Below, piece after piece: positions 1,794-52,200 of a DNA stretch of 57,064 nucleotides; the stretch's first letter is position 1; every line of letters starts with the position of its first letter. Made by a program: the position numbers and the translations under genes. The DNA is from a virus, in the IMG/VR virus record IMGVR_UViG_3300030390_001403, positions 1,238 through 58,301 of that record; one strand, 5' to 3'. The notes under the pieces were generated by a model, which worked only from the letters and a program-made list of their open reading frames with translations, did no database searches and was not told the DNA's origin.

Positions 1794-2048
1794 ATGGCGG
1801 ATAATCAAGTAACGGAATTAAACTTTAACGGCGAAACATACCTAATATCAGATCTAACACCTAGAGCAGTAGAAGGTTTTAATACGCTTATAAAAGCTCA
1901 ACAAAAACTTAACGACCTGGCAACAGAGTTAAAGATAGTGCAAGGGGGACAAACGCAGATTAATGCTGAATTACAACAGATTATGCAAGAGGATAAAATT
2001 AAACCTCAAGTTAAAGTTGAACAAGAACAAGTTAAAGAAGACAAATAG
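1794..2048 (+). CDS. Small coiled-coil protein, DUF6447-like
   Basis: 84 residues, with a strong ribosome site (aaggag) 10 bases before the ATG. The N-terminal half (LNFNGETYLISDL) followed by a long helix rich in Gln, Leu and Ala resembles, from memory, the DUF6447 family of short phage proteins found beside tail and lysis genes. The C-terminus is a Lys/Glu/Val-rich tail. No function is known. It sits between the XhlA-like protein and lysozyme and ends 1 base before the lysozyme ATG, so the two are probably co-translated. Confidence 0.65.
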   Translation: MADNQVTELNFNGETYLISDLTPRAVEGFNTLIKAQQKLNDLATELKIVQGGQTQINAELQQIMQEDKIKPQVKVEQEQVKEDK

Positions 2049-2049
2049 T

Positions 2050-2502
2050 ATGGATATTGAAAAATGCAAAGCTGAGATTAAACGCCATGAAGGCGAAGTT
2101 CTTGAAATATACAAAGATAGTTTAGGCTACAAAACACTTGGAGTTGGGCATCTATGCCAACCAGAGGATCCTGAGTACGATTGGGAAATAGGAACCAAGG
2201 TATCACAAGAAGTTGTTGATATGTATTATGAAGATGACTTTAACAAACACTTAGCTGAGGCGATACATGTGTTTGGCAGTGATGAAGGCTTTTATAACTT
2301 GCCTCAAGATATCCAACACGTGATAGTAAATATGTGTTTTAATCTAGGAGGAACAAGACTTTCTAACTTTAAAAACATGATGAAAGCTTGTAGAGAACAT
2401 GATTGGGAAAAAATGGCTGCTGAAATGGAAGACAGCAGGTGGTTCAAACAGGTAGGAAGAAGGAGTCTAGAACTACAAGCGCTAGTTCGTAATACTGTAT
2501 AA
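2050..2502 (+). CDS. Endolysin: T4-type lysozyme (glycoside hydrolase 24)
   Basis: 150 residues. It hydrolyses the MurNAc-GlcNAc bond of peptidoglycan in the periplasm to lyse the host. The T4 lysozyme catalytic triad is visible: E14 in KRHEG, D23 in YKDSLGY and T29 in YKTLGVGHL, with the family spacing. The C-terminal WFKQVGRRSLELQ segment is also typical. The start at 2050 is preferred over an in-frame ATG at 1963, because the upstream extension would overlap the previous gene by 86 bases and adds a Lys-rich non-homologous tail. There is no signal peptide, so release needs a holin. Several candidates are encoded at 8.9-10.0 kb. Confidence 0.93.
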   Translation: MDIEKCKAEIKRHEGEVLEIYKDSLGYKTLGVGHLCQPEDPEYDWEIGTKVSQEVVDMYYEDDFNKHLAEAIHVFGSDEGFYNLPQDIQHVIVNMCFNLGGTRLSNFKNMMKACREHDWEKMAAEMEDSRWFKQVGRRSLELQALVRNTV

Positions 2503-7972: not shown

Positions 7973-8215
7973 ATGGATACAATAAAAAAATGGTTAAAGA
8001 TAGCGTATAAATATATATTAAATTTATTTAGAACTCGCTACAAAATAACAGTATCTTTTAACAAAGAGTACGGAGATGCTGATGACAAAACCTATATTTC
8101 AAAAAAAATACTTACCCAAAAAGAAAAACACCTTAAGTTTAGAACCCTCGACAGAAAATTAATTGAGTATAGAAGTGCGTCGGGTCTTAATTATATTATT
8201 GAGGAAGATGAATAA
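7973..8215 (+). CDS. Hypothetical small protein (80 aa)
   Basis: Preceded by a good ribosome site (gaaggag). It has an amphipathic, aromatic- and Lys-rich N-terminus (MDTIKKWLKIAYKYILNLF), which could lie on the membrane, then a beta-rich, Lys-rich body. The stop overlaps the next ATG by 1 base, coupling it to the spanin gene. No function is recognised. The location suggests a lysis-cassette accessory. Confidence 0.6.
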   Translation: MDTIKKWLKIAYKYILNLFRTRYKITVSFNKEYGDADDKTYISKKILTQKEKHLKFRTLDRKLIEYRSASGLNYIIEEDE

Positions 8216-8610
8216 TGCAACAATTTTTATTAGCTCTTGTGGTAGTTTTAGGTATTAGTTCTTATTACCTTTACAATGAAAATAAAATACTAACTACAAA
8301 CAACTCTCTTTTAGAAGGTGCTGTAGAGACACAAAAAGAAACCATAGCTACTATACAAAAAGATTTTGCTCTACAAGCTAATAGTTTATTAGAACTACAA
8401 GGACGTAATCAAAAGATACAACAAGAAATGACAAGGTACCTTGACATATTTAAACGCCATAATTTAACTAAACTAGCAGCAGCTAAACCCGGATTACTAG
8501 AACCAAGAATAAATAAAGGAACCAAAAATGTATTTGATAGCATTGAAGAAGACAGCCGTAATATTGACAGCCTTGATGATGGCGTCCAGTTGCAGCCTGA
8601 TACCAACTAA
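8215..8610 (+). CDS. i-spanin (Rz-like)
   Basis: 131 residues, with a single N-terminal transmembrane segment (about residues 3-20) and a long periplasmic coiled coil (residues 25-85). The C-terminal signature RHNLTKLAAAKPGLLEPRIN, then GTKNVFDSIEEDS, is characteristic of Rz-type inner-membrane spanins, in which the last part contacts the outer-membrane partner. The o-spanin gene starts inside this gene in another frame, the classic embedded arrangement. The pair fuses inner and outer membranes at lysis and implies a Gram-negative host. Confidence 0.85.
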   Translation: MQQFLLALVVVLGISSYYLYNENKILTTNNSLLEGAVETQKETIATIQKDFALQANSLLELQGRNQKIQQEMTRYLDIFKRHNLTKLAAAKPGLLEPRINKGTKNVFDSIEEDSRNIDSLDDGVQLQPDTN

Positions 8611-8899
8611 ACAGGTAGAAATTTTAAGTAAACCTATAGAAAGAACTATAGTGCAACCTGTAATGCCTAGGGAAATAGACCTGAAAGATCCCTATTGGTA
8701 TGTAGTGTCAGATAAAAATTTAGAAGAATTTTTAACCAGAGTTGAAAAAGACCAAGACCAAGTAGTATTTGTTGCGATGTCTGTACCTGATTACGAGCTT
8801 ATGGCTTACAACATGCAAGAGCTGAAACGTTATATTAACGAGCTTAAAGAGGTTGTTGTCTATTACAGGAAAGTAACAATTGACAAACCAGAGGAATAA
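8528..8899 (+). CDS. o-spanin (Rz1-like lipoprotein)
   Basis: 123 residues, starting within the i-spanin gene in a different frame (83-base overlap). It has a lipoprotein signal with lipobox Ala-Ser-Ser-Cys and the lipidated Cys at residue 22, then a Pro-containing linker (VQPVMPREIDLKDPYWY) and a C-terminal coiled coil. It would sit in the inner leaflet of the outer membrane and bind the i-spanin. At 123 residues it is longer than lambda Rz1 and carries a folded C-terminal part. Overlap, lipobox and location together make the call firm. Confidence 0.8.
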   Translation: MYLIALKKTAVILTALMMASSCSLIPTKQVEILSKPIERTIVQPVMPREIDLKDPYWYVVSDKNLEEFLTRVEKDQDQVVFVAMSVPDYELMAYNMQELKRYINELKEVVVYYRKVTIDKPEE

Positions 8900-9096: not shown

Positions 9097-9474
9097 ATGA
9101 ACGATAACACTGAAAAATTTAGTGGAGATATGAGCCGCAACGAAGTTGAGATAGACCTTAATAAATTTATGGCTATGGTTTCAGAGATTGGTGAACTTAA
9201 ACAAAAAATCATGGAACTAGAAAACGATAAGCAGCCTGATAACCCTTGGCAGAAATGGATATGGCTATCTAACATGATTGATGCTTGGAGAATATTCCCT
9301 AGGGCATTTTTAAGTGTATATATTATATTGCTATACAAATGCACAATATGGTTTATGGAACTACCAGCACCAACATTTGAACAGTCAGGTTTAATTTCTG
9401 TTGTAGTTGGAGCGGGTGCTGCTTGGTTTGGTCTTTACGCAGGAACAGCTAAAGATAAAATTAATAGTCAGTAA
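9097..9474 (+). CDS. Holin candidate, two-TM protein
   Basis: 125 residues. A charged N-terminal half with a coiled coil (residues 1-45) precedes two transmembrane segments, about residues 70-90 (AFLSVYIILLYKCTIWFM) and 100-118 (LISVVVGAGAAWFGLYAG). The second segment closely resembles, from memory, phage holins annotated in marine phages. It probably forms the inner-membrane lesion that lets the lysozyme reach peptidoglycan. It overlaps the next start by 1 base. Confidence 0.7.
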   Translation: MNDNTEKFSGDMSRNEVEIDLNKFMAMVSEIGELKQKIMELENDKQPDNPWQKWIWLSNMIDAWRIFPRAFLSVYIILLYKCTIWFMELPAPTFEQSGLISVVVGAGAAWFGLYAGTAKDKINSQ

Positions 9475-9767
9475 TGGAAGTATTTGACCTTATAGAAAAG
9501 GTCGGATTACCAATAGCTGGTGGCCTTGTTATGGGCTACTTTATATTTTTAATAATGAAACAGCTTATGGAAGGGCTTGTTAATAAAATTAAAACAGTAC
9601 AGGGCATAACCAAAATGCTCATAACTCGAGCATCAATAATGAATAACGATATGATTCGCATAGACACAAGCGTGTCTGCTGCGCTCAATCTAAAACCGGA
9701 TCTAGGAAGGATTGCACGGGCAGAAAACTTTGTAGAAGATGGGAAGATAGACGCTAGAAGAGACTAA
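9474..9767 (+). CDS. Small membrane protein, BhlA/holin-like; paralogue of the next gene
   Basis: 97 residues: an N-terminal hydrophobic helix (IAGGLVMGYFIFLIM), then an amphipathic cytoplasmic helix and a basic/acidic tail. It shares with the following protein the opening M....LxEKxG, a GYF at the end of the helix, and DMIR about 40 residues later, so the two are likely tandem duplicates. Topology resembles BhlA-type holins. Stop and next start overlap by 1 base. Confidence 0.6.
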   Translation: MEVFDLIEKVGLPIAGGLVMGYFIFLIMKQLMEGLVNKIKTVQGITKMLITRASIMNNDMIRIDTSVSAALNLKPDLGRIARAENFVEDGKIDARRD

Positions 9768-10045
9768 TGGATATAGTCGCTTTAGTAGAAAAGTTTGGTT
9801 TCACTACTATTATGGTAGTGGGCCTAGGCTATTTCGTTTATTACGTATGGATAACCATAACTAAAACTATTGACCCCGCCGTTGCAGAAATGCAAAAAAC
9901 TATAATACGGTTAACCGACCAACTTAGACTGCTTGACCAAGATATGATACGCTTACAAGAGAAAGTTAATACTGTATTAGAATTACGGGGTAAAGAAAAT
10001 GGTAAAGAAAAGAGGAAGACCAAGCAAAGCAGAAATAAAACGTAG
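9767..10045 (+). CDS. Small membrane protein, BhlA/holin-like; paralogue of the previous gene
   Basis: 92 residues, with one N-terminal transmembrane segment (TTIMVVGLGYFVYYVWITI), a coiled coil (AEMQKTIIRLTDQLRLLDQ) and a Lys/Arg-rich C-terminus. The conserved EKxG, GYF and DMIRL positions link it to the upstream gene. The last 47 bases overlap the csgF-like gene in another frame, so lysis and curli genes are on one transcript. Confidence 0.6.
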   Translation: MDIVALVEKFGFTTIMVVGLGYFVYYVWITITKTIDPAVAEMQKTIIRLTDQLRLLDQDMIRLQEKVNTVLELRGKENGKEKRKTKQSRNKT

Positions 10046-10526
10046 AAGAAGAGAAGAAGGTAAAGATGCTGCTATTCAGTGGGTATGTCTTTTTGGTGTT
10101 CTTATGGTGTTGGGTATATTTATACAGCAGGCTAGAGCTGACCAAATAGTACACAAGTTTAAATCCCCCAGCTTTAACGGTATGGGAACATCATCTCATT
10201 ACCTTACAATTGAGAATCAAGAGTTTAGCCGTAAGCTAACTATTAAAGAAGAAATTAAAGCTTTACAAGAAGAAATAGAACGAGAGAAAGAAAATTCTAC
10301 ACTTGCTAGATTTATGCGTAACCTTGAATCAAGAGTTTATGCTGAGTTATCTAGACAGCTAGTAAACAACCTGTTTGGCGAGACCCCTTCTTCTTCTGGT
10401 ACTATAACCCTAGAAGGTAATACGATAGAGTATACTAGTGATGGCGTTACATTAACCTTAAAGATAACAGAAGCAGATGGCACAGTTACAGAAATCACAA
10501 TACCTATTGGTACTTTTACTTTCTAG
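9999..10526 (+). CDS. csgF: CsgF-like curli assembly factor with basic N-terminal extension
   Basis: 175 residues. In curli systems CsgF is secreted through CsgG, caps its outer face and couples secretion to fibre nucleation. After a predicted cleavage site (Ala-Arg-Ala, residues 45-47) come the CsgF hallmarks: an opening like E. coli CsgF (HKFKSPSFNGMG against QFRNPNFGG), a helix ending RQLVNNLFG, and a beta-rich C-terminus in the style of TLTLKITEADG. It differs from bacterial CsgF in a roughly 23-residue, very basic leader (KKRGRPSKAEIKRRRREE, containing an AT-hook-like RGRP) before the hydrophobic segment. It is also longer (about 128 mature residues). It overlaps csgG by 50 bases. Confidence 0.85.
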   Translation: MVKKRGRPSKAEIKRRRREEGKDAAIQWVCLFGVLMVLGIFIQQARADQIVHKFKSPSFNGMGTSSHYLTIENQEFSRKLTIKEEIKALQEEIEREKENSTLARFMRNLESRVYAELSRQLVNNLFGETPSSSGTITLEGNTIEYTSDGVTLTLKITEADGTVTEITIPIGTFTF

Positions 10527-11313
10527 TTGTTCTATACTCGACCAACGAGAAGATACATACGAACAAAGATTTAAAGAACACGATGTAGTATCTATTCAAG
10601 ACCTACAATCTATTGATTTAAAGAACGCACCTGTACCAGAAATAAGTCCGGTAGTAGCCGTATACCCAACATCATTTACAGACCAAACAGGTCAACGTAA
10701 AAGCAACAGTGAGTTTGCTTTATTTAGTAGTGTTATAACTCAACAACCCAATGCTTTACTTATAAGAGCCCTTAAACATGCAGGCAATGGCGAGTTCTTT
10801 AGGGTTGTTGAAAGAGTGGGTCTTGATAATTTAACAAAAGAACGCCAGCTTATAAGATCTGCAAGAGAACAGTTTGCAACAGAAGAAGAAAAGAAAAAAC
10901 AACTAGCACCGTTGTTGTTTGCTGGAATACTAATAGAAGGTGCTGTTTTATCTTACGAGGCTAATCTAGAGTCTGGTGGTATAGGCGCTAGGTATTTAGG
11001 CATAGGAACTAGTGTGCAATACAGAGAAGATAATATAACAGTGTCGTTAAGAATGGTATCTGTAGCTACAGGCGAGGTATTGTTAGAAGTACTAAGTCAA
11101 AAAACTATATTTAGTTACGGTAAATCAGAGGATGTATTTAGATTTATTGAGGCTAATACAGAACTAGTAGAGATAGAGCTAGGCAACGCTAGAAACGAGT
11201 CATCAACCATAGCATTAATGAAAGCTATAGAAGGTGGTGTCTTGGAAATAGTTAATCTAGGATACAACAAAGGTTACTGGAATAGACAAGATACCGCCAA
11301 AGGAGTAGAATAA
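10477..11313 (+). CDS. csgG: CsgG-like outer-membrane curli secretion lipoprotein
   Basis: 278 residues, close to E. coli CsgG (277). CsgG forms a nonameric outer-membrane pore that exports curlin subunits. A lipobox Leu-Ser-Ser-Cys places the lipid on C18. Family blocks are strongly conserved: FTDQTGQ, NLTKERQLIRSARE, ILIEGAVLSYEANLESGG, IGARYLGIGTSVQY and MVSVATGEVL, with FRFIE and a final IEGGVLEIVNLG. In the constriction loop the E. coli Phe56 seems kept (LFSS), but Tyr51 and Asn55 are not. The gene is intact and starts inside csgF. The beta-barrel strand region (YREDNITVSLRM, then VLSQKTIFSYG) is present, so a functional pore is likely. Confidence 0.93.
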   Translation: MAQLQKSQYLLVLLLSSCSILDQREDTYEQRFKEHDVVSIQDLQSIDLKNAPVPEISPVVAVYPTSFTDQTGQRKSNSEFALFSSVITQQPNALLIRALKHAGNGEFFRVVERVGLDNLTKERQLIRSAREQFATEEEKKKQLAPLLFAGILIEGAVLSYEANLESGGIGARYLGIGTSVQYREDNITVSLRMVSVATGEVLLEVLSQKTIFSYGKSEDVFRFIEANTELVEIELGNARNESSTIALMKAIEGGVLEIVNLGYNKGYWNRQDTAKGVE

Positions 11314-11317
11314 TTAC

Positions 11318-12043
11318 ATGAAGAACAAGCTTATAAGTTTACTTGCTGTTTTTTGTATAGGAGTTACTGGAGCAGACAACGAAATCTTTATCGACCAATC
11401 AGGTACTGGGGCTAATATAGACCTAGAACAATTAGGTATCTCAAACATTATTGGTGGACTTAGTTCATCAGCAGGCAGTCTAACAGCGCTTGATTTAGAC
11501 GGTACTAGTCTTACCCTAGATATTAATATGATTGGAAATACTAACAAATTTCTTGGGGATATTTTAGCAAACAGCTTTACCGGTTCTTATAATTTTATAG
11601 GTTCTACAAACACGTTCACTCTCCAGGTAGATCCAACCAACACGTACGGAGCTAACAGCTCTAATCAAAACGTAGCTGTAACAGGAGCTGGAAACACATT
11701 TACTTTAAATCAAGGCACGTCCGCATTAGCTGCTACTCTAGATTTAGATTGGATTATTCAAGGTTCTAATAACACAATTGTATCAAACATTAATATTGAC
11801 GGTGCAACTAACTATATGGATATAGATGGTAGTGATAACACAGTTAATTATACGGGAACAGGCGTAACAGCTAGTGCTGGTGGTTATTTCTATTTAGACC
11901 ACACAGGTGGCCAAAGAACCTTTAATATCCAACAACTGAGCACCCAAGACAATGACTGGCTTAAAATTATATCAATTGGTGGCAACGCTTCTTCTACTGT
12001 TTGTGTCGTTCAAAACGACCAAGGTACAAGCACAAGCTGCTGA
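11318..12043 (+). CDS. Curlin-like secreted beta-repeat protein (CsgA/B analogue)
   Basis: 241 residues, 4 bases after csgG. The signal peptide (MKNKLISLLAVFCIGVTGA) is followed by about 8-10 degenerate repeats of the curlin kind, with polar Asn/Gln/Gly spaced along short strands: IFIDQSGTGANIDLEQLG, MIGNTNKF, NVAVTGAGNTFTLNQG, IIQGSNNTIV, MDIDGSDNTV. Curlin repeats (Gln-x-Gly-x-x-Asn...) stack as a beta-solenoid amyloid. These are looser than E. coli CsgA and richer in Asp/Thr. The C-terminus holds two Cys (229 and the last residue, 241). Gene order makes it the probable CsgG substrate. No separate CsgE or CsgC is seen. Confidence 0.78.
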   Translation: MKNKLISLLAVFCIGVTGADNEIFIDQSGTGANIDLEQLGISNIIGGLSSSAGSLTALDLDGTSLTLDINMIGNTNKFLGDILANSFTGSYNFIGSTNTFTLQVDPTNTYGANSSNQNVAVTGAGNTFTLNQGTSALAATLDLDWIIQGSNNTIVSNINIDGATNYMDIDGSDNTVNYTGTGVTASAGGYFYLDHTGGQRTFNIQQLSTQDNDWLKIISIGGNASSTVCVVQNDQGTSTSC

Positions 12044-13070
12044 TATTGGCGGTATATCTGAGCTAAATGGTTCAGCACAAATAGTAAGAGACAAACCCTA
12101 CCAAGCAGATTTAAAGTTTGCCATACAAAGCAACGATGAAGCTATAACTACAGACGGTAGAATGGCTATAACATTTCTTGATGATTCAATAGTAAAGTTA
12201 ACTGAACATTCTAAGTTAACAATAAACGAATACATATACGACCCTGATCCATCCAAGGCAAAGATGGCTCTTACCTTTGGTCTTGGTACTGCTAGGTTTA
12301 TTAGTAGTAACCTAAACAAAATAAACAAAAGCAATATAAAGTTATCCACGCCCACGGCCGACATAGCAATACGTGGAACAGACTTTACAGCTACAGTTGA
12401 TGAGCTGGGACGTAGTCTAATTATTCTTTTACCAGACGCTTTTGGTTTATCTAGTGGAGAAATAGAAGTGGTAACAGCTATGGGGACCGTCTTATTAAAT
12501 AAACCTTTTGAAGCTACAACAGTTAGTGTGTTTGAATCTGCTCCTAGTAAACCTGTAATACTGGATTTAACGTTAGACCTTATTGATAATATGCTTATTG
12601 TTACTCCTCCTAAAGAAGAAAAAACAACCTACGCTGAAAATATATCGACTAAACAAGAAAGTATTTTAGACTTTAATGAGTTAGATGTAGATTATCTTGA
12701 CGTTGATTACTTAGGAGAGGATGAGCTTGAGTTTACAGAACTAGATATTAATTTTTTAGATGTAAACTATTTAGAAGACCTTCTTAATGTACTAGATGCA
12801 TTGGCCATAGCAGAAGAAAAAGACCAACTAGCACAAGCTACAAGCACTCAAATAGTAGGGACGTCTTTAGGTAAAGACCCCGACACCCAGATTACTACAT
12901 TAATAACAGGAAATGTAGTAAGCTTAAGAAGGAACGTTAATGAATCTGTACGGTTAGATGTTAACGGAAGTGAGTCTTACACGGTAATATTTATACAAGA
13001 CGGTGTATCAAATGTTGTTAAGATTAATGGTGGAGGAGAGTCTGTCATTACAATAACTCAAGGAGGATAA
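11952..13070 (+). CDS. FecR-domain periplasmic/exported protein with curlin-like C-terminal repeat
   Basis: 372 residues. The signal peptide ends at VQAQA (about residue 29). A FecR domain (about residues 35-190) shows its usual pattern: LNGSAQIVR, EAITTDGRMAITFLDDSIVKL, FGLGTARFI, STPTADIAIRGTDF and GEIEV. A strongly acidic Asp-Leu/Tyr repeat (DYLDVDYLGEDELEF) spans residues 240-275. The final 50 residues form a beta-rich module ending VIFIQDGVSNVVKI, which looks like one curlin repeat. Its start lies inside the curlin gene (92-base overlap in another frame). A good aggagg site at its 3' end serves the cyclase gene. FecR domains usually sense periplasmic or surface states. Confidence 0.82.
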   Translation: MTGLKLYQLVATLLLLFVSFKTTKVQAQAADIGGISELNGSAQIVRDKPYQADLKFAIQSNDEAITTDGRMAITFLDDSIVKLTEHSKLTINEYIYDPDPSKAKMALTFGLGTARFISSNLNKINKSNIKLSTPTADIAIRGTDFTATVDELGRSLIILLPDAFGLSSGEIEVVTAMGTVLLNKPFEATTVSVFESAPSKPVILDLTLDLIDNMLIVTPPKEEKTTYAENISTKQESILDFNELDVDYLDVDYLGEDELEFTELDINFLDVNYLEDLLNVLDALAIAEEKDQLAQATSTQIVGTSLGKDPDTQITTLITGNVVSLRRNVNESVRLDVNGSESYTVIFIQDGVSNVVKINGGGESVITITQGG

Positions 13071-13071
13071 T

Positions 13072-14817
13072 GTGAAGAAATGGATTTCGTTTGTTGGCGT
13101 AGGGTTACTTTGTTTACCCTTATTATTCAATGTGCAGGCATTAGAAGTACTTAAACTAAAAGTATTTGATGCTTTCGTACAAACTCCTGATCCTACTGGT
13201 TTCTTTGTAACATTAGATATTACTGAAACAGATGTAAGTCAGGCAGGCGGTTGGCCTTTTCCTAGGCAAGACTTAGCTAAAATACAAAACAATTTAATTA
13301 AAGCTGGAGCTATGGGTGTGGGTTGGGTAGTGGCTTTTCCAGAAGCAGATAGATTTGGCGGGGATGAAACCTTTGCTAGATCCCTTGCAAGCATACCAAG
13401 TGTCCTAGCCATGTTTGAAAGCAACACGGGGGTTGTGCCGCCTACTACGGGTACTGTTATATTAGGAAAAGGTGCGGACGGAATACCAGCTAGCGGCGTA
13501 ATAGTTAACACGGATATTTTAAGAAAGGCTACTAACGAAGGGATTGCAGCAGCTAGAGTAGATGTAGATAATCTTGTAAGAAGAATGCCTTTGCTTATGC
13601 AAACAAACACAGGGTGGGCTCCAGCTTTTGGTACGGAAGTTTTAAAGATACTGTCTAATACTGATACTTATATTATACGTACAGAACAACAACAAATAGC
13701 TGGTATAAAAGTACCTAACTTTGGTGAGATAGCAACCGATGGCCTAGGTAGGAAGTGGGTGTCCTGGGTTAATACTCCACGGACCACGCTCGATGATATG
13801 GATGTAGAAGGTAAGTTTGTATTTGTAGGAGTTAGTGCCAAAGGAGTAATGCCACAAATTGCTGTACCTACAGGGCTTTTATATCCACACGAAGTACAAG
13901 CTGCGCTTACAGAAAGTTTATTTTTTGAGTCTCCACAAATACCCGGAGCAAGTCTACTATATGAATTACTTATATTAGTAACAGTATTATTATCAGCTGT
14001 ATTTATAATACGTATGTTTGGTTTAGTCGGCACTGTTGTAGGAATAGTAGGGCTTGGATCTATAACAGCAGCAGGTGGCTGGTATCTTATAACTTCTAAT
14101 ATACTTATAGATGTTAGTTATAGTTTGTTATCAATGATACTTATATCTGTACAAGAATTTTACCTAAGATTTAATGAACAATTTAAGTTACGACAGTTAA
14201 TTAAAAAACAATTCGAACACTACTTAGATCCCAGGCAGGTTGCACGTTTGCAAGATAACCCAGAGCTTCTTAAACTAGGAGGAGAAAAACGTGTTTGTAC
14301 GTTTTTGTTTACTGACGTTAGGGGTTTTACTAACTTGTCAGAAAAATTAGAACCTGAAGAAGTAACAGAGATAATGAATAAAGTACTTACCGTACAAGTT
14401 CAATGCATCCAGGCACACGGTGGTATGGTAGACAAATTTATTGGTGATGCATGTATGGCTATATTTAATGCTCCTTTAGATTTAGATGAACATGAGCAAA
14501 GAGCTGTTGCTTGTGCTAGAGATATGCGTACAGCAATTAGAATGCTACAAAAAGAATTGCCTGAACCAATTGCAATTGGCATAGGTGTTAATACAGGTCC
14601 TGCTGTTATTGGTAATATGGGAAGTGATACAAGGTTTGATTATTCGGCAATAGGAGATGCTGTGAATACAGCTGCACGATTAGAATCTGCTACGAAAGAA
14701 GCAGGTGTTGATCTGTTAATTGGTGAGTCTACACGTACAAAAATACCAGAAGCTAGGTTCTGTAAAAAAATGTACGTTAAAGGAAAAAAAGATGCACTCA
14801 AAGTGTATACTATTTAA
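13072..14817 (+). CDS. CHASE2-domain transmembrane adenylate cyclase (class III)
   Basis: 581 residues, GTG start with an aggagg site 6 bases upstream. Order: N-terminal membrane anchor (residues 1-24), CHASE2 sensor in the periplasm (about 25-285; ITETDVSQAGGWPFPR is typical), three transmembrane helices (about 295-362), a short linker and the class III cyclase domain (about 405-581). Catalytic residues are all present: metal-binding D415 (FTDVRGFTNLSE) and D459 (DKFIGDACMAIF), transition-state N532 and R536 (YSAIGDAVNTAARLE). K455 and D523 are the adenine-selecting pair, so cAMP rather than cGMP is expected. It ends 1 base before the next ATG. In bacteria such receptors convert an extracytoplasmic cue into cAMP. 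Its presence in a phage operon is exceptional. Confidence 0.93.
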   Translation: MKKWISFVGVGLLCLPLLFNVQALEVLKLKVFDAFVQTPDPTGFFVTLDITETDVSQAGGWPFPRQDLAKIQNNLIKAGAMGVGWVVAFPEADRFGGDETFARSLASIPSVLAMFESNTGVVPPTTGTVILGKGADGIPASGVIVNTDILRKATNEGIAAARVDVDNLVRRMPLLMQTNTGWAPAFGTEVLKILSNTDTYIIRTEQQQIAGIKVPNFGEIATDGLGRKWVSWVNTPRTTLDDMDVEGKFVFVGVSAKGVMPQIAVPTGLLYPHEVQAALTESLFFESPQIPGASLLYELLILVTVLLSAVFIIRMFGLVGTVVGIVGLGSITAAGGWYLITSNILIDVSYSLLSMILISVQEFYLRFNEQFKLRQLIKKQFEHYLDPRQVARLQDNPELLKLGGEKRVCTFLFTDVRGFTNLSEKLEPEEVTEIMNKVLTVQVQCIQAHGGMVDKFIGDACMAIFNAPLDLDEHEQRAVACARDMRTAIRMLQKELPEPIAIGIGVNTGPAVIGNMGSDTRFDYSAIGDAVNTAARLESATKEAGVDLLIGESTRTKIPEARFCKKMYVKGKKDALKVYTI

Positions 14818-15075
14818 ATGGCTAGAGACTATAAAAAAGAATATGCTAATTACCATAGTAAACCTAAACAAAAAAAGAATAGGGCTATGAGAAATTTAGC
14901 TAATAGAACGGCTAAAAGATTAGGACAGATTGTAAAAGGAGATGGCAATGACGTTCACCACAAAGATGGAAACCCTAGAAATAACAAGACATCTAATTTA
15001 AAAGTTAAATCTGCTTCTGAAAATAGGTCTTATGCTAGAACTAAGAAAGCAAGGAAAAAAAACCCAAAAGCGTAA
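14818..15075 (+). CDS. Small basic HNH-like protein
   Basis: 85 residues, abutting the cyclase stop. The central DVHHKDGNPRNNKTSNLKV resembles the metal-binding beta-beta-alpha core of HNH nucleases (His-His...Asn...Asn), flanked by very basic helices. At 85 residues it is short for an active HNH endonuclease, and the last His ligand is unclear. Similar small proteins are frequent in marine phages with no proven function. It is the last gene of the rightward block. Confidence 0.65.
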   Translation: MARDYKKEYANYHSKPKQKKNRAMRNLANRTAKRLGQIVKGDGNDVHHKDGNPRNNKTSNLKVKSASENRSYARTKKARKKNPKA

Positions 15076-15164: not shown

Positions 15165-15404
15165 TTATAAGTTCTTCTGAGAAGTTTTAGTATTTTTTAA
15201 AGTTTCTACTAGTTTATTTAGATACCATTGGGCTTTTTCTAAGTCTTGTGTACCATTTTTAGCTTCGTAACGCCAAATGTATTTTAAAATATTACCTTTT
15301 AGGTAACCTTTAAAAGCATCAGGTGTCATACTTTCTTCTATTGCTACAATACACTCTATATTTCCTGTGTTGTAGTGTGGGGGTGAGTTAACCATGTCAG
15401 TCAT
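15165..15404 (-). CDS. DUF3310 protein
   Basis: 79 residues. The full family signature is visible: MVNSPPHYNTGNIECIVAIE, then GYLKGNILKYIWRYEAKNGT and DLEKAQWYLNKLVE. DUF3310 proteins are very common in phage replication regions. Some are annotated as nucleotide-kinase-like, but the biochemical role is not settled. Its ATG overlaps the stop of the upstream small gene (ATGA), which couples translation. It is the last gene of the leftward block. Confidence 0.9.
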   Translation of the reverse strand: MTDMVNSPPHYNTGNIECIVAIEESMTPDAFKGYLKGNILKYIWRYEAKNGTQDLEKAQWYLNKLVETLKNTKTSQKNL

Positions 15405-26475: not shown

Positions 26476-26651
26476 ATAATTCTCCATAATAAATATAAAA
26501 TTGAGCCAAGGCCTATGCCTGTGCCCAGTAGGATTAGTGAGTATTGGATGCTAGTCGCAATACCAAAAAGCAAAAAGAGAACGCCAGTACCTACCAATAC
26601 TGATGTTGTGTATTCTTTTGCTGTTGTCTTACATTTCGATGATTTCGCCAT
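26472..26651 (-). CDS. Small two-TM protein (59 aa)
   Basis: It opens MAKSSKCKTTAKEYTTSVLV, followed by two hydrophobic helices (about residues 17-34 and 37-57) separated by a short polar turn. The start lies inside the end of the VWA gene (23-base overlap), and the stop overlaps the next ATG. Topology suggests a hairpin membrane protein with a basic cytoplasmic start. No function is recognised. Confidence 0.55.
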   Translation of the reverse strand: MAKSSKCKTTAKEYTTSVLVGTGVLFLLFGIATSIQYSLILLGTGIGLGSILYLLWRII

Positions 26652-27735
26652 ATGGGGCCTCCCCTGGTTCAGTTGTTATCCATAACACCGGATAATGAGG
26701 TGCATCACCAAAGTCGTCGCATTCTAAATCTGTAAGATATATAAGTGCTGCAACATTAGGATGATGTTTGTTTACGTAGTCTATAGCTGGAGCAAACCTA
26801 GTACCGCCACGCCCTTCAAACTGAACTGTTTTTAAGGGCAACGATTCTCTGGTGTACTCTACGTCGCTGTTAACTTCAGTATCACATTGGATAAGATGAA
26901 TAGCTTCTGGGCTTAAGTCACGCAATATAGATGATATCTCTGTTAGATCTTGACCAAGTTCGTCATTAGTTCTAGAACCTGACGTATCGCACACGACTGC
27001 TACTGATTCTAAACATGGTGTATGCAAAGAAGGTAAGTACATGCCGCGTCCGATAAAACGTTTGTTAGGTCTAAGCCAAGAAAAGTCAGATTTGTTATTA
27101 GCACGTAAGAACCTTGCTAACACCATTTTCCAATCTATTTTAGGTTCTGCTATATCAGTCACTAAATCTTGCATAGAACCAGACAGTTTGCCTTGGGCTT
27201 TAGCTGCTTCAGCAGACTGATTAATAGCAACAGTAAGTTTAGCTTCGATAGCACTCTGAGTACCAGAAGTTCCATCTGATTCAGGGTGGTCTAGCACACC
27301 GCCACAATTGCCAGAGTCAAACTTTACATCGTCCCAACCGTTTGGAGGTTCAGGCAACATATTGTAAATAACTTCTGACATCATATTGAGATAAGCATCA
27401 TCTACTAAACCACCTTTAGGCAAAATAAAATTTTCTGCTACAAGATGGTTGTTAATAGCGTAGTCAGCTGCAACGTTCCATTTATTAGGCAAACGTTCTT
27501 GTCTACGCACATGATGCATAAGTACCATGTGCATAACTTCGTGAGCTAAAAAACCGACGCGTTCCAATTCTGACAACTTGCCAAACCATGTAGGATTGTA
27601 AAACAAATGCACACCATCAACAGCACCGGTAGGCATGTCTTCAGTTTCTACTGGTTTAAGACGTAAACACAAAGTGCCAAAGAATGGTTGGTCTAGAATT
27701 AATCTAGACCTAGCTTTTACAAATTGTGGGTTCAT
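26629..27735 (-). CDS. DUF2201-type protein: zincin-like domain plus VWA domain
   Basis: 368 residues. The N-terminal domain has a metallopeptidase HExxH motif, H65-E66-V-M-H69 (FLAHEVMHMVLMHH). The C-terminal part is a von Willebrand A-like domain with a MIDAS start D250-T-S-G-S254 and a later YLTDLECDDFGD. This is the DUF2201 arrangement, typically partnered with a MoxR-type AAA ATPase, which is encoded two genes upstream. Such pairs act as chaperone-like or metal-insertion machines. In this phage the target is unknown. The gene starts on the same base as the previous stop (27735). Confidence 0.87.
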   Translation of the reverse strand: MNPQFVKARSRLILDQPFFGTLCLRLKPVETEDMPTGAVDGVHLFYNPTWFGKLSELERVGFLAHEVMHMVLMHHVRRQERLPNKWNVAADYAINNHLVAENFILPKGGLVDDAYLNMMSEVIYNMLPEPPNGWDDVKFDSGNCGGVLDHPESDGTSGTQSAIEAKLTVAINQSAEAAKAQGKLSGSMQDLVTDIAEPKIDWKMVLARFLRANNKSDFSWLRPNKRFIGRGMYLPSLHTPCLESVAVVCDTSGSRTNDELGQDLTEISSILRDLSPEAIHLIQCDTEVNSDVEYTRESLPLKTVQFEGRGGTRFAPAIDYVNKHHPNVAALIYLTDLECDDFGDAPHYPVLWITTEPGEAPYGEIIEM

Positions 27736-28388
27736 TAATCATCTCCTAGTAATGAGCTTTCGAGCAACGTTTCACGAATGCCTTGTAATTCGCCATCTGC
27801 AAGTTCAGCAAGTTCTTTGCGTCTACCTGAACGGTCGTCTTCTTCATGCATCTTAGACACTTTTTCTTGTGGCACTAAATCTTTTAGATAAGGAGCAGCC
27901 TTAAGTAATTGATTTAAGGTAGAAAAACGTTCCATAACCGAGTCTAAAGCTCTACGTTCTTCGCCTCGTTTGTTGTCCAACTTCTCGTTGTAGTTCTGTA
28001 TAGCAATACATTCAACAAACGTTGGATGATCTGGTTTAACGTCCATCTTAATAACATCGTACTTAAGTAACATGCTAGGCACTTCTGTGTCTTGCAAGTC
28101 AAATGTATATTGCCTGTTGTAAGATTCTACATAACCATCTTCGTCTGGTTCTTTCTCATACGCACTACTAATAACAACATATCTAGCAGTTTCTGTAGGC
28201 ATAGGCATATTCCATATTTGCTTAAATAGAGCAGAAGTGCGTTCTGTTTTACCTATGATGTCTTGTTCTACCAACAAATCGTACCCACTGTCTGGGTACG
28301 TTTTTTGCGGATGAGCATTCATGTATTTTATTCTAGCGTTATTAGAAATAATCCTTTTAAGGTCTTGTGATAATCTAACTGTTTTCAT
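27735..28388 (-). CDS. Hypothetical protein (217 aa) between MoxR and VWA genes
   Basis: N-terminal helix RLSQDLKRIISNNARIKYM, central beta-rich region, and a C-terminal helical region (LNQLLKAAPYLKDLVPQEK) with an acidic end. It is similar in plan to the 279-residue protein at 25007-25846. Being sandwiched between ATPase and VWA genes suggests it is an adaptor or substrate of the pair. No domain is certain. Confidence 0.65.
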   Translation of the reverse strand: MKTVRLSQDLKRIISNNARIKYMNAHPQKTYPDSGYDLLVEQDIIGKTERTSALFKQIWNMPMPTETARYVVISSAYEKEPDEDGYVESYNRQYTFDLQDTEVPSMLLKYDVIKMDVKPDHPTFVECIAIQNYNEKLDNKRGEERRALDSVMERFSTLNQLLKAAPYLKDLVPQEKVSKMHEEDDRSGRRKELAELADGELQGIRETLLESSLLGDD

Positions 28389-28396
28389 ATTTTCTC

Positions 28397-29413
28397 CTAT
28401 AATATGACATTAGCGTTGTCTGTAATCCACTTACGGACATCGTTATGTGATTTAAGTTCTCTGTCTTTTGCAAAACAACCTCTAAGCAACACAACTTGAA
28501 ACTCTGTAGGTATTTTGTTACATAGTTTCATTATGTTATCTATTGTGGTTGCAGAAGCTCTAGTAGCAATAGCCGTAGTCAATGCGTAAAGTAACGCAGG
28601 GTCTTCGTCTTTTTTGTATAGCTTTGGATCAGCAACAAGCTTGTCTATGTCAGGTAGCTTGTTAGCTATTTGTTTGAAAGCAACAAACTCGCCTGCTGCA
28701 CCGTCACCAACTAAAGAAGAAACACCATAAAATAATCTTTCTTCGTCAGTGTTGGACTTATGTAGCTTTTTACTAACCATGGACCACGCTCGTGGAGTAG
28801 GGAAAGCATATTCATCAGCATTAAACTTAGATAATAAGTTAGGTCTGAAGTTTATAAAGCCAATAACATCCTCGTGCACATTATTCTTGTAAGCCCACTC
28901 AACCCAGTCTTGTAAGATAGGTTCGAGTTCATAATGGGCCATTCTGTTTCTAACTGGGCTTGGCATTTGGTATACAGCTGCTGAGTCAGTTAACCTGTTA
29001 CCAGCACAAAGCAAAGACCAACCTTTTGGTAATTCATAATCACCAATACGTCCGTCAAGCAACAGTTGCAAGAAAGCATTCTGAGTTGCAGGTGGTGCAG
29101 TTGGCAATTCGTCAATAAACAAAATGCCACGTTCGCCGTCACGTTCTACAATAGGAAATACATCTGGCACAGCCCATGATGTAAATCGTTTGTCAGTCTC
29201 AATTACTTTTCTGATATAAGGAATACCACGTACATCGACAGGGTCGAATAAGTTAGCACGAAAGTCTAGAAGTTTTACATTCATTTCTCTTGCTAGTTGT
29301 TGTGGTATTTCTGATTTACCTATACCGGGACCACCCCAGATCATTGCTGGATATCCAGCTTTTATACAGTCTTTGAGCTCGTCCATAAGAGCTAAAGGAT
29401 TTATCGTATGCAT
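28397..29413 (-). CDS. MoxR-type AAA+ ATPase (AAA_5)
   Basis: 338 residues. Walker A GGPGIGKS (residues 27-34), Walker B GILFIDELPTA, sensor 1 LLCAGN and an Arg-rich SPVRNRM segment are all present, so ATPase activity is expected. MoxR ATPases work with VWA proteins to remodel or activate client complexes; related CobS-like ATPases occur in marine phages. A gaggtg ribosome site precedes the ATG. It is the first gene after a 107-base leader holding the repeated TTACTATTAA motif and two competing hairpins. Confidence 0.9.
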   Translation of the reverse strand: MHTINPLALMDELKDCIKAGYPAMIWGGPGIGKSEIPQQLAREMNVKLLDFRANLFDPVDVRGIPYIRKVIETDKRFTSWAVPDVFPIVERDGERGILFIDELPTAPPATQNAFLQLLLDGRIGDYELPKGWSLLCAGNRLTDSAAVYQMPSPVRNRMAHYELEPILQDWVEWAYKNNVHEDVIGFINFRPNLLSKFNADEYAFPTPRAWSMVSKKLHKSNTDEERLFYGVSSLVGDGAAGEFVAFKQIANKLPDIDKLVADPKLYKKDEDPALLYALTTAIATRASATTIDNIMKLCNKIPTEFQVVLLRGCFAKDRELKSHNDVRKWITDNANVIL

Positions 29414-33138: not shown

Positions 33139-33290
33139 TGGCTAAACCAGGACTATGGGCAAACATACACGCAAAACGTAAAAGGATAAAAGCAGGCTCA
33201 GGCGAAACTATGAGAAAAAAAGGAACAAAAGGCGCCCCTACTAATAAGGCCATTAAAAAATCACAAAATAAAAAGAAAAAGAAAGCCTAA
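33138..33290 (+). CDS. Small basic protein (50 aa), recurrent marine phage family
   Basis: The pattern GLWANIHAKRKRIKAGSGE, then MRKKGTKGAPT, recurs (from memory) in unannotated small genes of many phages, often near structural genes. Function is unknown. One-base overlaps with both neighbours show it is part of the packaging operon. Confidence 0.7.
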   Translation: MAKPGLWANIHAKRKRIKAGSGETMRKKGTKGAPTNKAIKKSQNKKKKKA

Positions 33291-33583
33291 TGCCTAGGAA
33301 AAGGGACAAGCCAATACGTAAGACTACCGGTAAAGGTGGTAACTACCGTAAAACAAAATCAGGCGCTGGTATGACGGCAAAAGGCGTGGCCGCACATAGG
33401 CGCGCGAACCCAGGATCCAAATTAAAGACCGCAGTAACAGGAAAAGTTAAAAAAGGCAGTAAAGCAGCCGGAAGAAGAAAATCCTATTGCGCTAGATCGG
33501 CTGGACAGATGAAAAAGTTCCCAAAAGCCGCTAAAAACCCTAATTCAAGGTTAAGACAAGCACGAAAACGTTGGAAATGTTAA
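33290..33583 (+). CDS. Basic protein (97 aa), DUF6321-like
   Basis: KGGNYRKTKSGAGMTAKGVA, AHRRANPGSKLKTAVTGKV and a Cys-containing end (KSYCARSAGQ, RKRWKC) match, from memory, DUF6321, a short family common in marine phages. It is strongly basic, with a conserved Cys near residue 67 and a terminal Cys. A role in DNA handling or head assembly is possible from its place next to the large terminase. Confidence 0.75.
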   Translation: MPRKRDKPIRKTTGKGGNYRKTKSGAGMTAKGVAAHRRANPGSKLKTAVTGKVKKGSKAAGRRKSYCARSAGQMKKFPKAAKNPNSRLRQARKRWKC

Positions 33584-46234: not shown

Positions 46235-49200
46235 ATGTCATCTATAGATGAAGGAATACAAAAAATTGCTTCTGGCCAATTTGCAGAATTAGGCCAAGTT
46301 TCTCAAACTGATGAAGAAATGGAAGGCGCATTTGGAACCCCCGCGTTACAACCTGAAATTACAAAAGTTGATAATCCTTTAGAAGCCTTTAAAGGTGGGG
46401 TAAAGTCTGGCGTACGAAACGTACAAGCTCAAAACCAAAACTTTATGGCTGCTATTGCTACCATTAGGGGCAATGAAGACGCCATGCAGAACAGGCTTGA
46501 TGAAGCAGACACTTTATCTTACGAAGCTTCTATACCACTTGCAGGTATGGAGCAATTTGATAAGTTCCTAGAAGAACCTACTGTATTAGGTTTCTTTAAT
46601 CAAATGGCGTCAGCAACGGGGCAATTTGTACCTTCTGCTGTAGCAACCGTAGCAGAAGCTGCACTTGTCGGAGCAGCCGTAACGGGTGTAACTATAGCAA
46701 CCGGGGGTACTGCAGTACCAAGCCTAATAGGAGCTGCTGCAATAGGTAGAGCTACCTTAAAAAACGTACCAAGAAGAATCGCAGAAAGAGGCGGCAGTAG
46801 AGAGTACGCAGAAAATCTAATCGAAAAAAGTTATAAAAATGCATTAGCTACAAAAAACAAGACTGCTTTACCTTATCCTAAAATGCGAATGCAGGAAGAG
46901 CTAGACTTGGATGCAATATACTTAGCCTTACGTAGTCAAAAACTGTCAAGACGATTTAAACAAGGTGCGTTAGGGGGCGCGCTCGGACAAGAGTTCCGCC
47001 AGGGATCTGGTATCGCGTACGGAGATTATGCAGAACAGGGTATGACTACTCCAACTGACGCCGTTAATGCATTTGCGCAAGGTGGCGTGTTTGCAGGTAT
47101 AGGCGTAGGTTCTGAAGCAGCTGTAGCTGGAAGTTTTTTACGAACTCTAAAAAAAGGTAGGGTTAAAAGACAAGCAGCAGGGGACGACCCTTTCTTATTA
47201 CGAAATGCTAATAAGACTAGCGTACTTAAAGATTTAGGATACATAACAGGAGTTACTGCTTTTTCAGAAGGTTTAGCAGAATTACTACAAGAAGAACTGT
47301 CTGTACAACAAAAATTTAGAATAGATGATACTTACACAAAAGCTAATGCTAATTTAGATAGAAAACACGCAGCATTTGCAGGGTTCTTTGGGGGAGCAGG
47401 TTTGGGTGGAGCTATAGGTTCTGGTCCTGCTGTATTTAACAAAAGTAGAGAACTATTAAACAGAAGTTTAGACGAAGAACATCTAAGACAAGTCTACAAT
47501 GAAAGACAAGGCGAAGTTGGCGAAGGGCACGTATTCCAAGAACACTCTGATTTAATAGAAGAAAACTTTGACATGATGTTTAATGAATCAAACAAAGACT
47601 CTGTTTGGGTAGATATAGATAGCCGAAAACAATGGCAAAAAGTTCAAGATAAAATAAATAATAAATACAATGGCGAGTATTTCTCTGTAACATCTTTAGG
47701 TAAAGGAGTTTTTTTTACTAGAAATGAAAAAAAAGCTCAGGCTTTTTCAAACATGGTAGATGCAGACCCGTACAACACAGAGATGCAAGATGACTGGTTA
47801 GCACAAAACCTTGGGTACACTAGAAGCAGAATGACTGGGGATGATCAAATTGTAGGGATACGAAACAAAAAAACAGGTAAGCTAGCTTGGTACCAGCAAA
47901 CTACAACAGAAAAAGAAGATAACGGTAAAACCGGTACAGAAAATGCAACAAGTGCGGCAAACCGTGTTATGGGTAAATCAAGAGATAAGTATGACATTGT
48001 TTATCAAACCCCTTCAGAACATTTTACTGAACGTATGGAAGGTTTAGAACAAGAAACTACAGGTTTCAACGAAGACACTAAAGACCCAGATACAGTTAGA
48101 TACCAAGAATTTGATGCGGAAGGAAGCGAACAAGTAGAAGCGGAAGCGCAAGCAGCTGCTGATGCAGAACAAGATTCTTTAAACTCCCAACTAGATGCAA
48201 GTAGAGGTAATATAGGAGAAGGTACTGAAAAAGATATTAATGATTACATTAAAGCTGAATTTGGTATAGATGTACCCTATATAGATTTATTACAGTTTGC
48301 AGATACATCCAACAAACTTAAAATACTAGCAGCAAAGTCAGCAAAAAATAAAAGTAAACAAGGGTCCTTAGGGAAACAGCTAGAAGAAGCAGGTGTAGAA
48401 ACACCAGCTACAAATAATAATGCTAAAGCAAAAGATAGTGTTAAGAAAGCTATGGACCAACTTAAACCTAGTATAAAAGCTAGATACTTAAAAACTATGG
48501 CTGCTATTAAACAGGCGCAAAATGATAGTACCGTAAGATCTTCAGAAGTCCAAGCTAGTATAGATGCACTTAATAAAAACCCTGTCCTTGCAGTAACAAA
48601 CCTAATAGAATTTGTAGAAGAAGCTTTAAGCTCTGATTCTTTAAGAGACAGCACTGTAGCAGACTTAGAACGAACCAGTACAGCTTTAGGTACGTCTAGA
48701 GATGAGCTTATGCCGTCTAGAGAAATTTTGACTAACCCTAACGTTGCGGGTATGGATACTAGTGATAATGTTGCAGTTGGAGTAGACAACGATGAAATAA
48801 TGAATCGTGGTGGATCCGGTACAGTAGAAAACCCGTTCGTTGATTTAATAGACGGAGAACCAACTCCTTTTTCTATAGATAACAAAGGGGATAAAAAAGC
48901 TAGCCCCCAGCAAATAGCATTAATTTCATCTTTAATACACCCTAACTTTAAAAGTGATTTCGATAAAATTAAAAACCTTATTTCTGAAAGATTAGCTACT
49001 AGGTTTTTACAAAAACAAAGCACTGATAACGCTAGTGAGTTTATACGAATAGTTCCCGTTTCTAAACTAGGTGAACTGCGAGCTAGCTTAGAAATTGTAC
49101 AAGAACAAATACCTGACAACATAAAAGAGTTCCAAAACATTAAAAAAGAAGGTTTTGTATTAGTAAGACATTTTGTAGATAACTCTCAAGAAACGACAAA

Positions 49201-52200
49201 AATGAACCCTAATGAATTGCAACCAGAAGCATTCGCAGAAAATGTAGCGGTTCGTATTGCACAAGCTAAAAAAAGAGGGAATAACAATAAAATAGATAAG
49301 AACCATAAGTTTAAAGTTAAAGATGCATACGCAAATAAAACCCCAAGCTTGCAAAATGCTGCTCCAGGAGTAGTAGACATAGGGGTATTAATACAGGGCT
49401 TTGTTACTTTAATGAGAAGAAGCGGCCAGAGACCTGAGTTTGCGAGTATGAGTGTTGCTCAAACTAGGGCAATAGCTTTTAACGACGTACTTGATTATTT
49501 TGAACAAAATAATATTACTTTAGAATACTACCCAGATGGAGTAAAAACTAAAGAAGGTAGACCTCCTGTAACTTTAGTAGGCCCAGCTTTTAAAGGTACC
49601 CCTAGAGCACAAGAATCATTTACAACAACACCAAGAATAATTACTTCCGAGTATGGACCCATAAACAATAAAGGGCCTAAAACTTCCAACCTCATAAACG
49701 AAATAGTAAACGACGTTGATTCTGGTATTTATGACATAGGCAACGACCCTAAAAGTTACGCTCAAATTGTAAAATCTTTTAAAACAAAACCAAGCACAGT
49801 CCAAAAAATAGAACAAGCGGTAAAAGATGGAAAGCTTACTTTGTCTGCTATAGCGCATACTCCTGCCCCAGAATTACCAATGCCAAGTACACCTGTCCAG
49901 GAAGATGTTACACGAAATTTTTTATTTAAAGACGCCCAGGGCAAAATGCAATTATCTATGGGGTTTGCTAAAGTAGAAGTAAAAAAAGTAACTAGGGTTA
50001 AAAGAACACAAAAACAAGAATTAGCTAGGTTTAAAAGAACACAAAAACGAATTGAAGATAGACAAAAGTACATTAATAATTTAAAAGGTTTTGAAGGCCC
50101 ATTACAAGAAGTTGCTTTAGAAGACGCTATGTATGAACAAATACAAGATAGGATAATAGAACTCACAGATTTAAATTTTGTGACTTACTCTGAGCCTAGT
50201 GGAGCTAATAGAGACAGCCTATTAATAGGCAATAGAAAAAATGTTATAAAAAATTTAATGGGTAAATACGGGTTTTCTACGCAAAAAGAATTACGAATAT
50301 TTTGGGAAGAAAACAAAGAGAAAGAGTTAGGGGATTTCGATTCTTACGTATCTAATACTATAAGTACTATTGTAGATGAGCTTTTACCCCTTACCTATGT
50401 GCAAGAGTTAGCGTCCTTTATGGCTAATAAATTAGATCAAAGGATGTATGAAACAGTCATAGGTCAACAGCCCGTAGGAGTTTGGCTATCAGACGCTTTG
50501 GCTATAAAAGATGCAGGGTCAGAGGCGTCTGTTTCTGCTGATAGTAACCTAGATGCCAGTGGTGTTTTTAATAACCCTTTAGACAACGTAGTTAAAGGTA
50601 TGACTGACCCCAATAAACAAGACATACTAATGTCTAATGAGTTTGAGTCTATTTCAGAACAAGAAGCACTAGAAACAAGAGGCAGAGACAAATTTAAAGA
50701 AATGTCTAGACCAAAAAAAGCAGGGGTAGACAAACAGAAAACATCTGCAAATTCAAAATACGCTAAAAAAACTGAGGTATCAGAAAACGTACAAGCCATA
50801 GACCCAGTTGTAGCGGAAGACTTAGAAAAAGGGTTAGAAATTAACCATAAAGATTTTGGAACCGGCACTGTACTTTCAGTTAAAAAGGGCGAAGTTTCTA
50901 TAAAATTTAATGACTCCGAGATAGGCACAACTACTTTAAAAATACCTAAAACAGGGACTACAAGAATGACAGTTGTACAAGAGGTAGCACCTACTCAAGA
51001 TGAGCAGGTTCTTGATGAAGATACGCCAATATACAACGAACCTGGAGTTATAGACATACCTAACGAAAATTATGAAGATGGGGTATTTGATGATGATGGT
51101 AACACTCAACCTATACAAGAACGTGAACTTACTCAAGATGAACAGTTTGAAGAACAGTATCAAGAAGCTAATAGAGAACAAGAAGATGGTAAAAGAAGAG
51201 CTAAAGTATCTACAGAAGCACGTAAAAGAGCGGATGCTAAACAAGCAGCCAAACAAAAATCTGCACGTACAAAACCAACACCTAAAAAACCAACACCTAA
51301 AAAACCCCCACTAAAACCAACCGTATTTAAAAAAAGCCTAAACGCAAAAACAAGAGATAAAATAATACAAGCAGCAAGACGTTTAGGTTTAACTACAAAC
51401 ATAAAAATATTTAATGTAAACGAAAAAATAAATTTAGGCAGTGGTGGCGCAAACGCAAGGATTAAAAAAGCTCAAGATCAAATGCAAGCTGACATAGCTG
51501 CGGGTAAAAAAGTACTTGGTGCAAATGTATCCTTTAAAAATTATGATGTAATTTTATTAGCTCCACGTGCAGATGGTAATGTAGGAGGGTATGCACAAAC
51601 GCTTATGCATGAACTTGGTGAGTCGTTCGTACGACAAGAAACCGACAAAAGTTTAAAAGTAGGTAAAGTTAGAGAAAAATTATTAGCTGAATTTGCAAAA
51701 GAAAAAGCTAAACCAAACACCCCTTCTGCTTATAAAAATCAAGATACGGGTTTTGATGAATGGGTAGCTGACCAGTTTGGGGCAGCCATTAGAGAAAAAT
51801 TAGGTATTAGTTTAGATGCAGATAAAAGTTTCAAAGAAATGTCAGTAGGTGCTAAATCTTGGTTTAGAAGATTAGCTAAAAAACTTTTAGATTTTTATAA
51901 TTCTCTTGGCCCAGTAAACAGAAGAAGACTAGAAGCTAATGAAACAGCACAAGAGTACATAGCTACTGTAGCAGATAAATATAGAGCCCCTACTCAGAAA
52001 AAAATACCCTACGAAGTAAAAGCAAGAATAGAAAAGCAAATAGAATCTATCCTAGGCCCTGAGACTTTTAGTGATAAACAGCTAAGAAAAGTACAAGACA
52101 AAGCTATTAAACTACTTAGTTTAGATAAGATGCCTAACTGGGTTAAAAAAATACTATATACATCTGATGGTAGACTTAGAGACATGGGCCCGGTAGGAGT

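Follow-up and report, generated by a model that had tools for sequence, protein, structure and literature searches.

A conserved phage gene cassette linking curli-type secretion genes to a FecR-domain protein and a predicted CHASE2 adenylate cyclase

The window analyzed here comes from a marine virus of bacteria and is a stretch of 57,064 nucleotides covering bases 1238-58301 of the 58,301-base IMG/VR virus record IMGVR_UViG_3300030390_001403. It carries a cassette in which curli-type secretion genes are followed by a gene for a FecR-domain protein and a gene for a predicted CHASE2-class III adenylate cyclase. The first-pass annotation of the window had placed five intact, overlapping or abutting genes between positions 9999 and 14817, encoding CsgF, CsgG, a curlin-like protein, a FecR-domain protein and a CHASE2-cyclase. 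All five open reading frames are present at these coordinates on the plus strand and are intact, and Pfam profiles firmly assign four of them to the proposed families.

The csgF gene (9999..10526, +) encodes a putative extracellular curli nucleation and pore-lining factor, which matches Pfam CsgF at 1e-17 (65 bits against a cut-off of 25.8) and phrog_35372 at 6e-44. The N-terminus of this protein (window 9999-10080) contains an unusually long basic stretch, KKRGRPSKAEIKRRRREEGK, ahead of the hydrophobic signal segment and gives a weak AT-hook match. The csgG gene (10477..11313, +) encodes the putative outer-membrane curli export pore. Its CsgG domain is full-length (Pfam 3.2e-45, 154 bits against a cut-off of 20.8), and residues 46-274 align with the E. 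coli CsgG structure 3x2r at 8.6e-46. A lipoprotein signal, LSSC, was spotted by eye. The product of the third gene (11318..12043, +) is curlin-like as judged from its relatives and repeats, and is the likely fiber subunit for CsgG export. Relatives of this protein match Pfam Curlin_rpt at 5e-8, and its profile finds 8c50, a curlin-associated repeat protein of solved structure, at 1e-4. The GxxN motif occurs nine times in the protein, 3.3 occurrences being expected from shuffled sequences; nine are reached by 0.3% of the shuffles, and the family mean is 8.9 against 2.8. The AlphaFold model is confident and beta-rich (pLDDT 84, pTM 0.81).

The FecR-domain protein (11952..13070, +) matches Pfam FecR at 2.3e-8 (34.8 bits against a cut-off of 24). 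The model of its FecR domain matches the periplasmic domains of the FecR-type regulators 4m0h and PupR 6ovk with E values of about 1e-4 and a probability of 1.0. This periplasmic fold is common to the phage protein and to the FecR/PupR anti-sigma regulators of cell-surface signaling. Unlike in these regulators, an anti-sigma N-terminal domain was not found in the phage protein. A signal-peptide-like helix leads straight into the FecR domain, and the protein further contains a long disordered linker (213-270) and an extra C-terminal beta domain. The C-terminal domain was suspected by eye to be a curlin repeat; comparison with the profile of the curlin family yielded a match of no more than 13 columns at 5% probability, and this assignment is not claimed.

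The last gene of the cassette (13072..14817, +) has a GTG start and begins 2 nt past the FecR gene. Its product matches CHASE2 at 1.9e-27 and Guanylate_cyc at 2.4e-20. Hydropathy shows transmembrane-like segments at 5, 295, 315 and 340, and the predicted topology is one transmembrane segment, a periplasmic CHASE2 domain, three transmembrane segments and a cytoplasmic cyclase domain. The residues D415, K455, D459, D529, N532 and R536 are kept in the 66-68 aligned copies, the sole exception being one N-to-S substitution. These residues (two metal aspartates, the base-specifying lysine and aspartate, an asparagine and an arginine) presumably form an ATP-type class III site. The nearest solved catalytic domains are those of bacterial adenylate cyclases, including CyaB. 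The active site is intact, and the synthesis of cyclic AMP (cAMP) is predicted.

Two further genes lie directly upstream of csgF. The first encodes a small membrane protein of 97 amino acids with one N-terminal transmembrane-like helix and a hydrophilic tail (9474..9767, +; phrog_18771 1.4e-24) and is the first conserved member of the cassette. The second is another copy of the same family, 92 amino acids in length (9767..10045, +; phrog_18771 3.5e-25). Genes of phrog_18771 precede csgF as two copies of about 95 amino acids in some phages and as one of about 116 in others. These small one-helix proteins belong to the conserved unit. The first-pass extent of 9999-14817 thus contains the five genes as described but misses the upstream proteins (9474-10045), and the boundary should better be set at about 9474, taking in both of them. 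Wittmers et al. 2022 state that a histidine kinase precedes the module (PMC9599517). The phrog_18771 reading frames are almost certainly the ones so termed. Among 12 members of the family, no kinase domain was found with Pfam at E values up to 1; the matches obtained were weak and mutually unrelated, with a marginal YvrJ match in four. The proteins are 92-117 amino acids long, which is too short for a kinase, and those of the myophages HTVC008M and Melnitz likewise have no kinase domain. The published record should almost certainly be corrected to the effect that the gene or genes upstream of csgF encode small membrane proteins and not a kinase.

The gene set is strongly conserved. CsgG-seeded searches yielded 254 close relatives in viral contigs, and at least 600 relatives were found with the cyclase. 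Counted over loci with enough flank, the cyclase-seeded loci contain FecR in 64 of 66 cases, curlin in 53 of 54, CsgG in 49 of 50 and CsgF in 42 of 42. The small membrane protein is encoded directly upstream of csgF in 37 of 38 cyclase-seeded podophage loci. Similar values were obtained for HTVC008M-type myophages (CsgF 76/76, small protein 74/74, curlin 60/60, FecR 46/46 and cyclase 17/18). The spacing is also maintained: the csgF-csgG overlap measures exactly 50 nt in 96 loci, that of the curlin and FecR genes measures 92 nt in 80 loci, and the FecR-cyclase distance lies between -7 and +27 nt in 66 of 70 CsgG-seeded loci. All six genes occur as a group in three phage backgrounds or more. The median ratio of non-synonymous to synonymous substitutions (dN/dS), taken over unsaturated pairs each compared with the window gene, is 0.12 for CsgF, 0.09 for CsgG, 0.12 for curlin, 0.10 for FecR and 0.21 for the cyclase. 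All five genes are under purifying selection.

The five-gene set had been singled out as the feature deserving attention; it is not new. The CsgF-CsgG-CsgA/B-FecR-cyclase module has been described in HTVC023P-type podophages and pelagimyophages by Wittmers et al. 2022 (PMC9599517), and its expression in ocean metatranscriptomes was reported in the same work. The gene set, FecR and cyclase included, its occurrence in two phage families and its ocean-wide distribution and expression are therefore already published, as are, in the form of proposals, roles in superinfection exclusion and "sibling capture". The type VIII secretion module of the pelagiphages has the same gene order as the window, namely the upstream small gene or genes, CsgF, CsgG, curlin repeat, FecR and cyclase. 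The window cassette differs from it in residing in a podovirus genome related to phiA008 and KPP25, in having no second curlin gene and in having upstream proteins without a kinase domain. The cassettes of HTVC008M and of the Methylophilales phage Melnitz also show the order and families of the window, with identities of 44-45% for CsgG, 36% for FecR and 32-33% for the cyclase. Both of these are myophages, and in both an additional curlin gene separates FecR from the cyclase. Unlike in the window, neither the CsgF/CsgG nor the curlin/FecR overlap is present in HTVC008M. In this phage, the second curlin gene (L001:10432-11754) matches CsgB at 9.6e-8. One sequence in the curlin alignment has a PA14 domain (2.7e-6), which hints at an adhesive tip; its long N-terminal extension makes it probable that this sequence is the second HTVC008M curlin. 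Beyond the open-licence PMC literature, the present analysis adds a further phage backbone, the correction of the upstream genes, a test of phage specificity on a sample of bacterial loci, and evidence of exchange in parts.

For this test, bacterial genomes were scanned with CsgG and the best 80 of 191 hits were inspected with phage-trained profiles, among which the one for FecR could overlook remote relatives. Alphaproteobacterial cellular loci contain CsgF, CsgG and curlin genes. Enterobacterial loci contain CsgG, many of them with a detected curlin gene on the opposite strand. The bacterial curli operons of E. coli, Hyphomonadaceae, Sphingomonadales and Roseobacteraceae thus share CsgG and curlin-repeat genes with the phage cassette, and the alphaproteobacterial loci also resemble it in that CsgF adjoins CsgG. 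They differ in that none of the genes for FecR, CHASE2 cyclase and small membrane protein was found within about 8 kb of cellular csgG among the best 80 of 191 hits. Within this sample, phage-type neighbors occurred only in four contigs of metagenome-assembled genomes (MAGs), L162, L163, L164 and L172, the first of these without a detected cyclase. These contigs were binned as Maricaulis, Flavobacteriaceae, Rhodobacteraceae and Pelagibacter and are probably phage contigs in bacterial bins. A host inference from the Pelagibacter-labeled L172 was considered; the genus group consists of that MAG alone, and nothing is concluded on hosts. The record OR851715.1, a 1,499-base "Salmonella phage" entry, encodes a CsgG 42% identical to that of the window and is likely a mislabeled bacterial sequence.

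The sensory half of the cassette has a bacterial parallel. It had been suggested that FecR and CHASE2 genes are neighbors in some bacteria, and this is indeed the case in the biofilm-regulating (BiofilmReg) operon of Burkholderia, where a periplasmic FecR-domain protein adjoins a CHASE2 transmembrane sensor (PMC5192318). The Burkholderia system differs in its output, which is a histidine kinase with a response regulator, and in a LysM domain on the FecR protein; the output in the phage is a cyclase. CHASE2 cyclases are common in the Alphaproteobacteria, the class of a Hyphomonas genome, and were detected in 187 of 289 genomes searched with the cyclase. A divergently oriented FecR gene stands beside the CHASE2 cyclase in 3 of 30 short alphaproteobacterial loci, the flanks of which measure about 1.2 kb, so that absence from the others weighs little.

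Proteome comparison shows that the window phage shares 18 genes with Aeromonas phage phiA008, 10 with Pseudomonas phage KPP25 and only 4 with Pelagibacter phage HTVC023P. A placement as an HTVC023P-type podophage was rejected on these grounds. By gene content, the window phage is a phiA008/KPP25-related podovirus and represents a further lineage carrying the cassette. The cassette genes of this phage appear to have different histories. In the cyclase tree, the window-backbone phages form one clade (18/19, support 100/99). In the CsgG tree, the window CsgG lies within a clade with HTVC023P-type phages (99/98), and monophyly of the window-backbone CsgG is rejected by the approximately unbiased (AU) test (p-AU 7e-5, with long branches and bacterial rows taken out). 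The FecR tree has the same pattern as that of CsgG, but here the AU test of monophyly was not significant (p-AU 0.128). Identities point in the same direction. The window and its backbone relative L086 share 55% identity in CsgG, 59% in FecR and 71% in the cyclase, whereas the window and the HTVC023P-like L007 share 89% in the small protein, 86% in CsgG, 84% in FecR and 54% in the cyclase. A rate difference alone cannot account for this inversion. The trees and identities indicate that the cassette is mosaic, the cyclase following the phage backbone and CsgG having been exchanged with HTVC023P-type phages. The simplest account would be that a block beginning with the small membrane genes and ending with FecR was exchanged, the junction lying close to where FecR meets the cyclase. 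The lineage labels of the partial contigs rest on few shared genes, and complete genomes would be a firmer basis.

The cassette had also been described as following directly on the lysis genes of the phage. A Rz/Rz1-like spanin pair is indeed encoded at 8215-8610 and 8528-8899 (+; phrog_739 2e-16 and phrog_812 3.5e-13, both lysis), outside the unit, and a phage endolysin at 1963..2502 (+; phrog_7 5.7e-17). The cassette shares its strand with the structural and lysis genes, and the replication genes converge on it. For this reason, late expression in infection is likely. Promoter and terminator scans gave sites no more numerous than in shuffled sequence. An HNH endonuclease-like gene (window 14818-15075) abuts the cyclase gene, and other phages with this backbone have the two genes side by side. 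Several other genes of the window were noted. A short gene at 15165-15404 (-) is about 70-75% identical in DNA to Klebsiella and Acinetobacter phage genes, some of them annotated as nucleotide kinase. A DUF2201 metallopeptidase/VWA-like protein (7e-52) is encoded at 26629-29413 (-); with a nearby AAA ATPase it makes up a MoxR/VWA-type pair, here in a phage. A small reading frame at 33290-33583 is 84% identical to a protein of HTVC023P (L084:28017-28337), a phage otherwise sharing little with that of the window, which suggests recent exchange. The 2605-amino-acid reading frame at 46235-54052 has no Pfam match and weak relatives in KPP25 and phiA008, and probably encodes a large virion protein.

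We propose that these genes constitute a phage-specific cassette for the secretion of a surface fiber, equipped with its own FecR/CHASE2 envelope sensor that makes cAMP; we give this reading about an even chance of being correct. What the sequences establish is family membership, conservation and co-occurrence; export, fiber, sensing and cAMP are inferred. Late in infection, CsgG would form a pore in the outer membrane, CsgF would line and cap it, and the curlin protein would be exported as an adhesive amyloid-like fiber. The secreted FecR protein may sense the state of the envelope or of the fiber and signal to the cyclase through the periplasmic CHASE2 domain of the latter, and the cAMP level would then shift when the fiber is made; FecR/CHASE2 pairs of bacterial biofilm operons may work likewise. 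The small one-helix proteins may serve as inner-membrane partners. The likeliest benefit would be an altered surface of the infected cell, leading either to aggregation with neighboring hosts or to a superinfection block; the evidence favors neither, and the PA14 domain mentioned above is a hint of adhesion. The known SAR11 and OM43 hosts of related phages have no curli genes (PMC9599517, PMC9004378).

Several observations weigh against this proposal. The 11318-12043 protein itself has no Pfam Curlin_rpt match, and Foldseek with its model returned no convincing match. In contrast to the canonical E. coli curli (type VIII) system, the periplasmic gate CsgE was not found: the 58,301-base record gave no match at E values up to 1, and the E. 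coli control was positive. A cyclic nucleotide-binding protein or receptor was not found in the phage record either, so cAMP would need host targets. No clumping was seen with Melnitz by Buchholz et al. (PMC9004378). Finally, the differing histories of CsgG and cyclase argue against a tight one-to-one co-adaptation of cyclase and secretion.

An extension of an idea put forward for Melnitz by Buchholz et al. (PMC9004378) would make the cassette a lysis-timing device, in which CsgG and CsgF form a secretin- or pinholin-like channel that depolarizes or weakens the envelope and the FecR/CHASE2 cyclase acts as a timer. The position after the spanins fits this idea, and among 73 podophage loci flanked by 4 kb or more, 44 have a recognizable lysis homolog within 4 kb on either side. 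The HTVC008M and Melnitz stretches examined have no annotated lysis gene next to the cassette. CsgG is an outer-membrane and not an inner-membrane protein, the curlin gene, which a bare pore could do without, is conserved to about the same degree as csgG, and the phage already has an endolysin and spanins. We regard lysis timing as unlikely. It is quite unlikely that cAMP is the main product, reprogramming the host or countering its defense, with the fiber genes merely supplying the stimulus. The active-site residues are kept in essentially all copies, and the cyclase has been kept in every case, also in phages with an exchanged secretion block; on the other side, the cyclase evolves fastest of the five genes, and the phage record has no detected receptor for its product. 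An ungated CsgG might instead import cofactors, with FecR and cyclase reporting the nutrient state (PMC9599517, PMC7029224). The undetected CsgE gate and the oligotrophic habitat of related phages would suit such a pore, which leaves the conserved CsgF and curlin protein unexplained and is improbable. An assembly chimera, bacterial contamination or decaying passenger genes can be dismissed in view of the hundreds of relatives in viral contigs, the phage proteome placement, the cassettes in the isolates HTVC008M and Melnitz and dN/dS values well below 1.

The secretion of a surface fiber coupled to envelope sensing can tentatively be taken further. The cassette could possibly be a phage-assembled sensory organelle that combines fiber secretion with an envelope-sensing cAMP switch and is exchanged in parts; as a single operon it was not found among the sampled bacteria. 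The sensor-cyclase would stay with the phage lineage, perhaps tuned to the host, and the fiber/pore block would be swapped between unrelated phages. The cyclase and the secretion block appear to be separately exchangeable, which makes natural swaps available for comparison. The module is widespread in ocean phages, and if the inferred function is true, infected cells would gain a fiber and a cAMP signal supplied by the phage alone.

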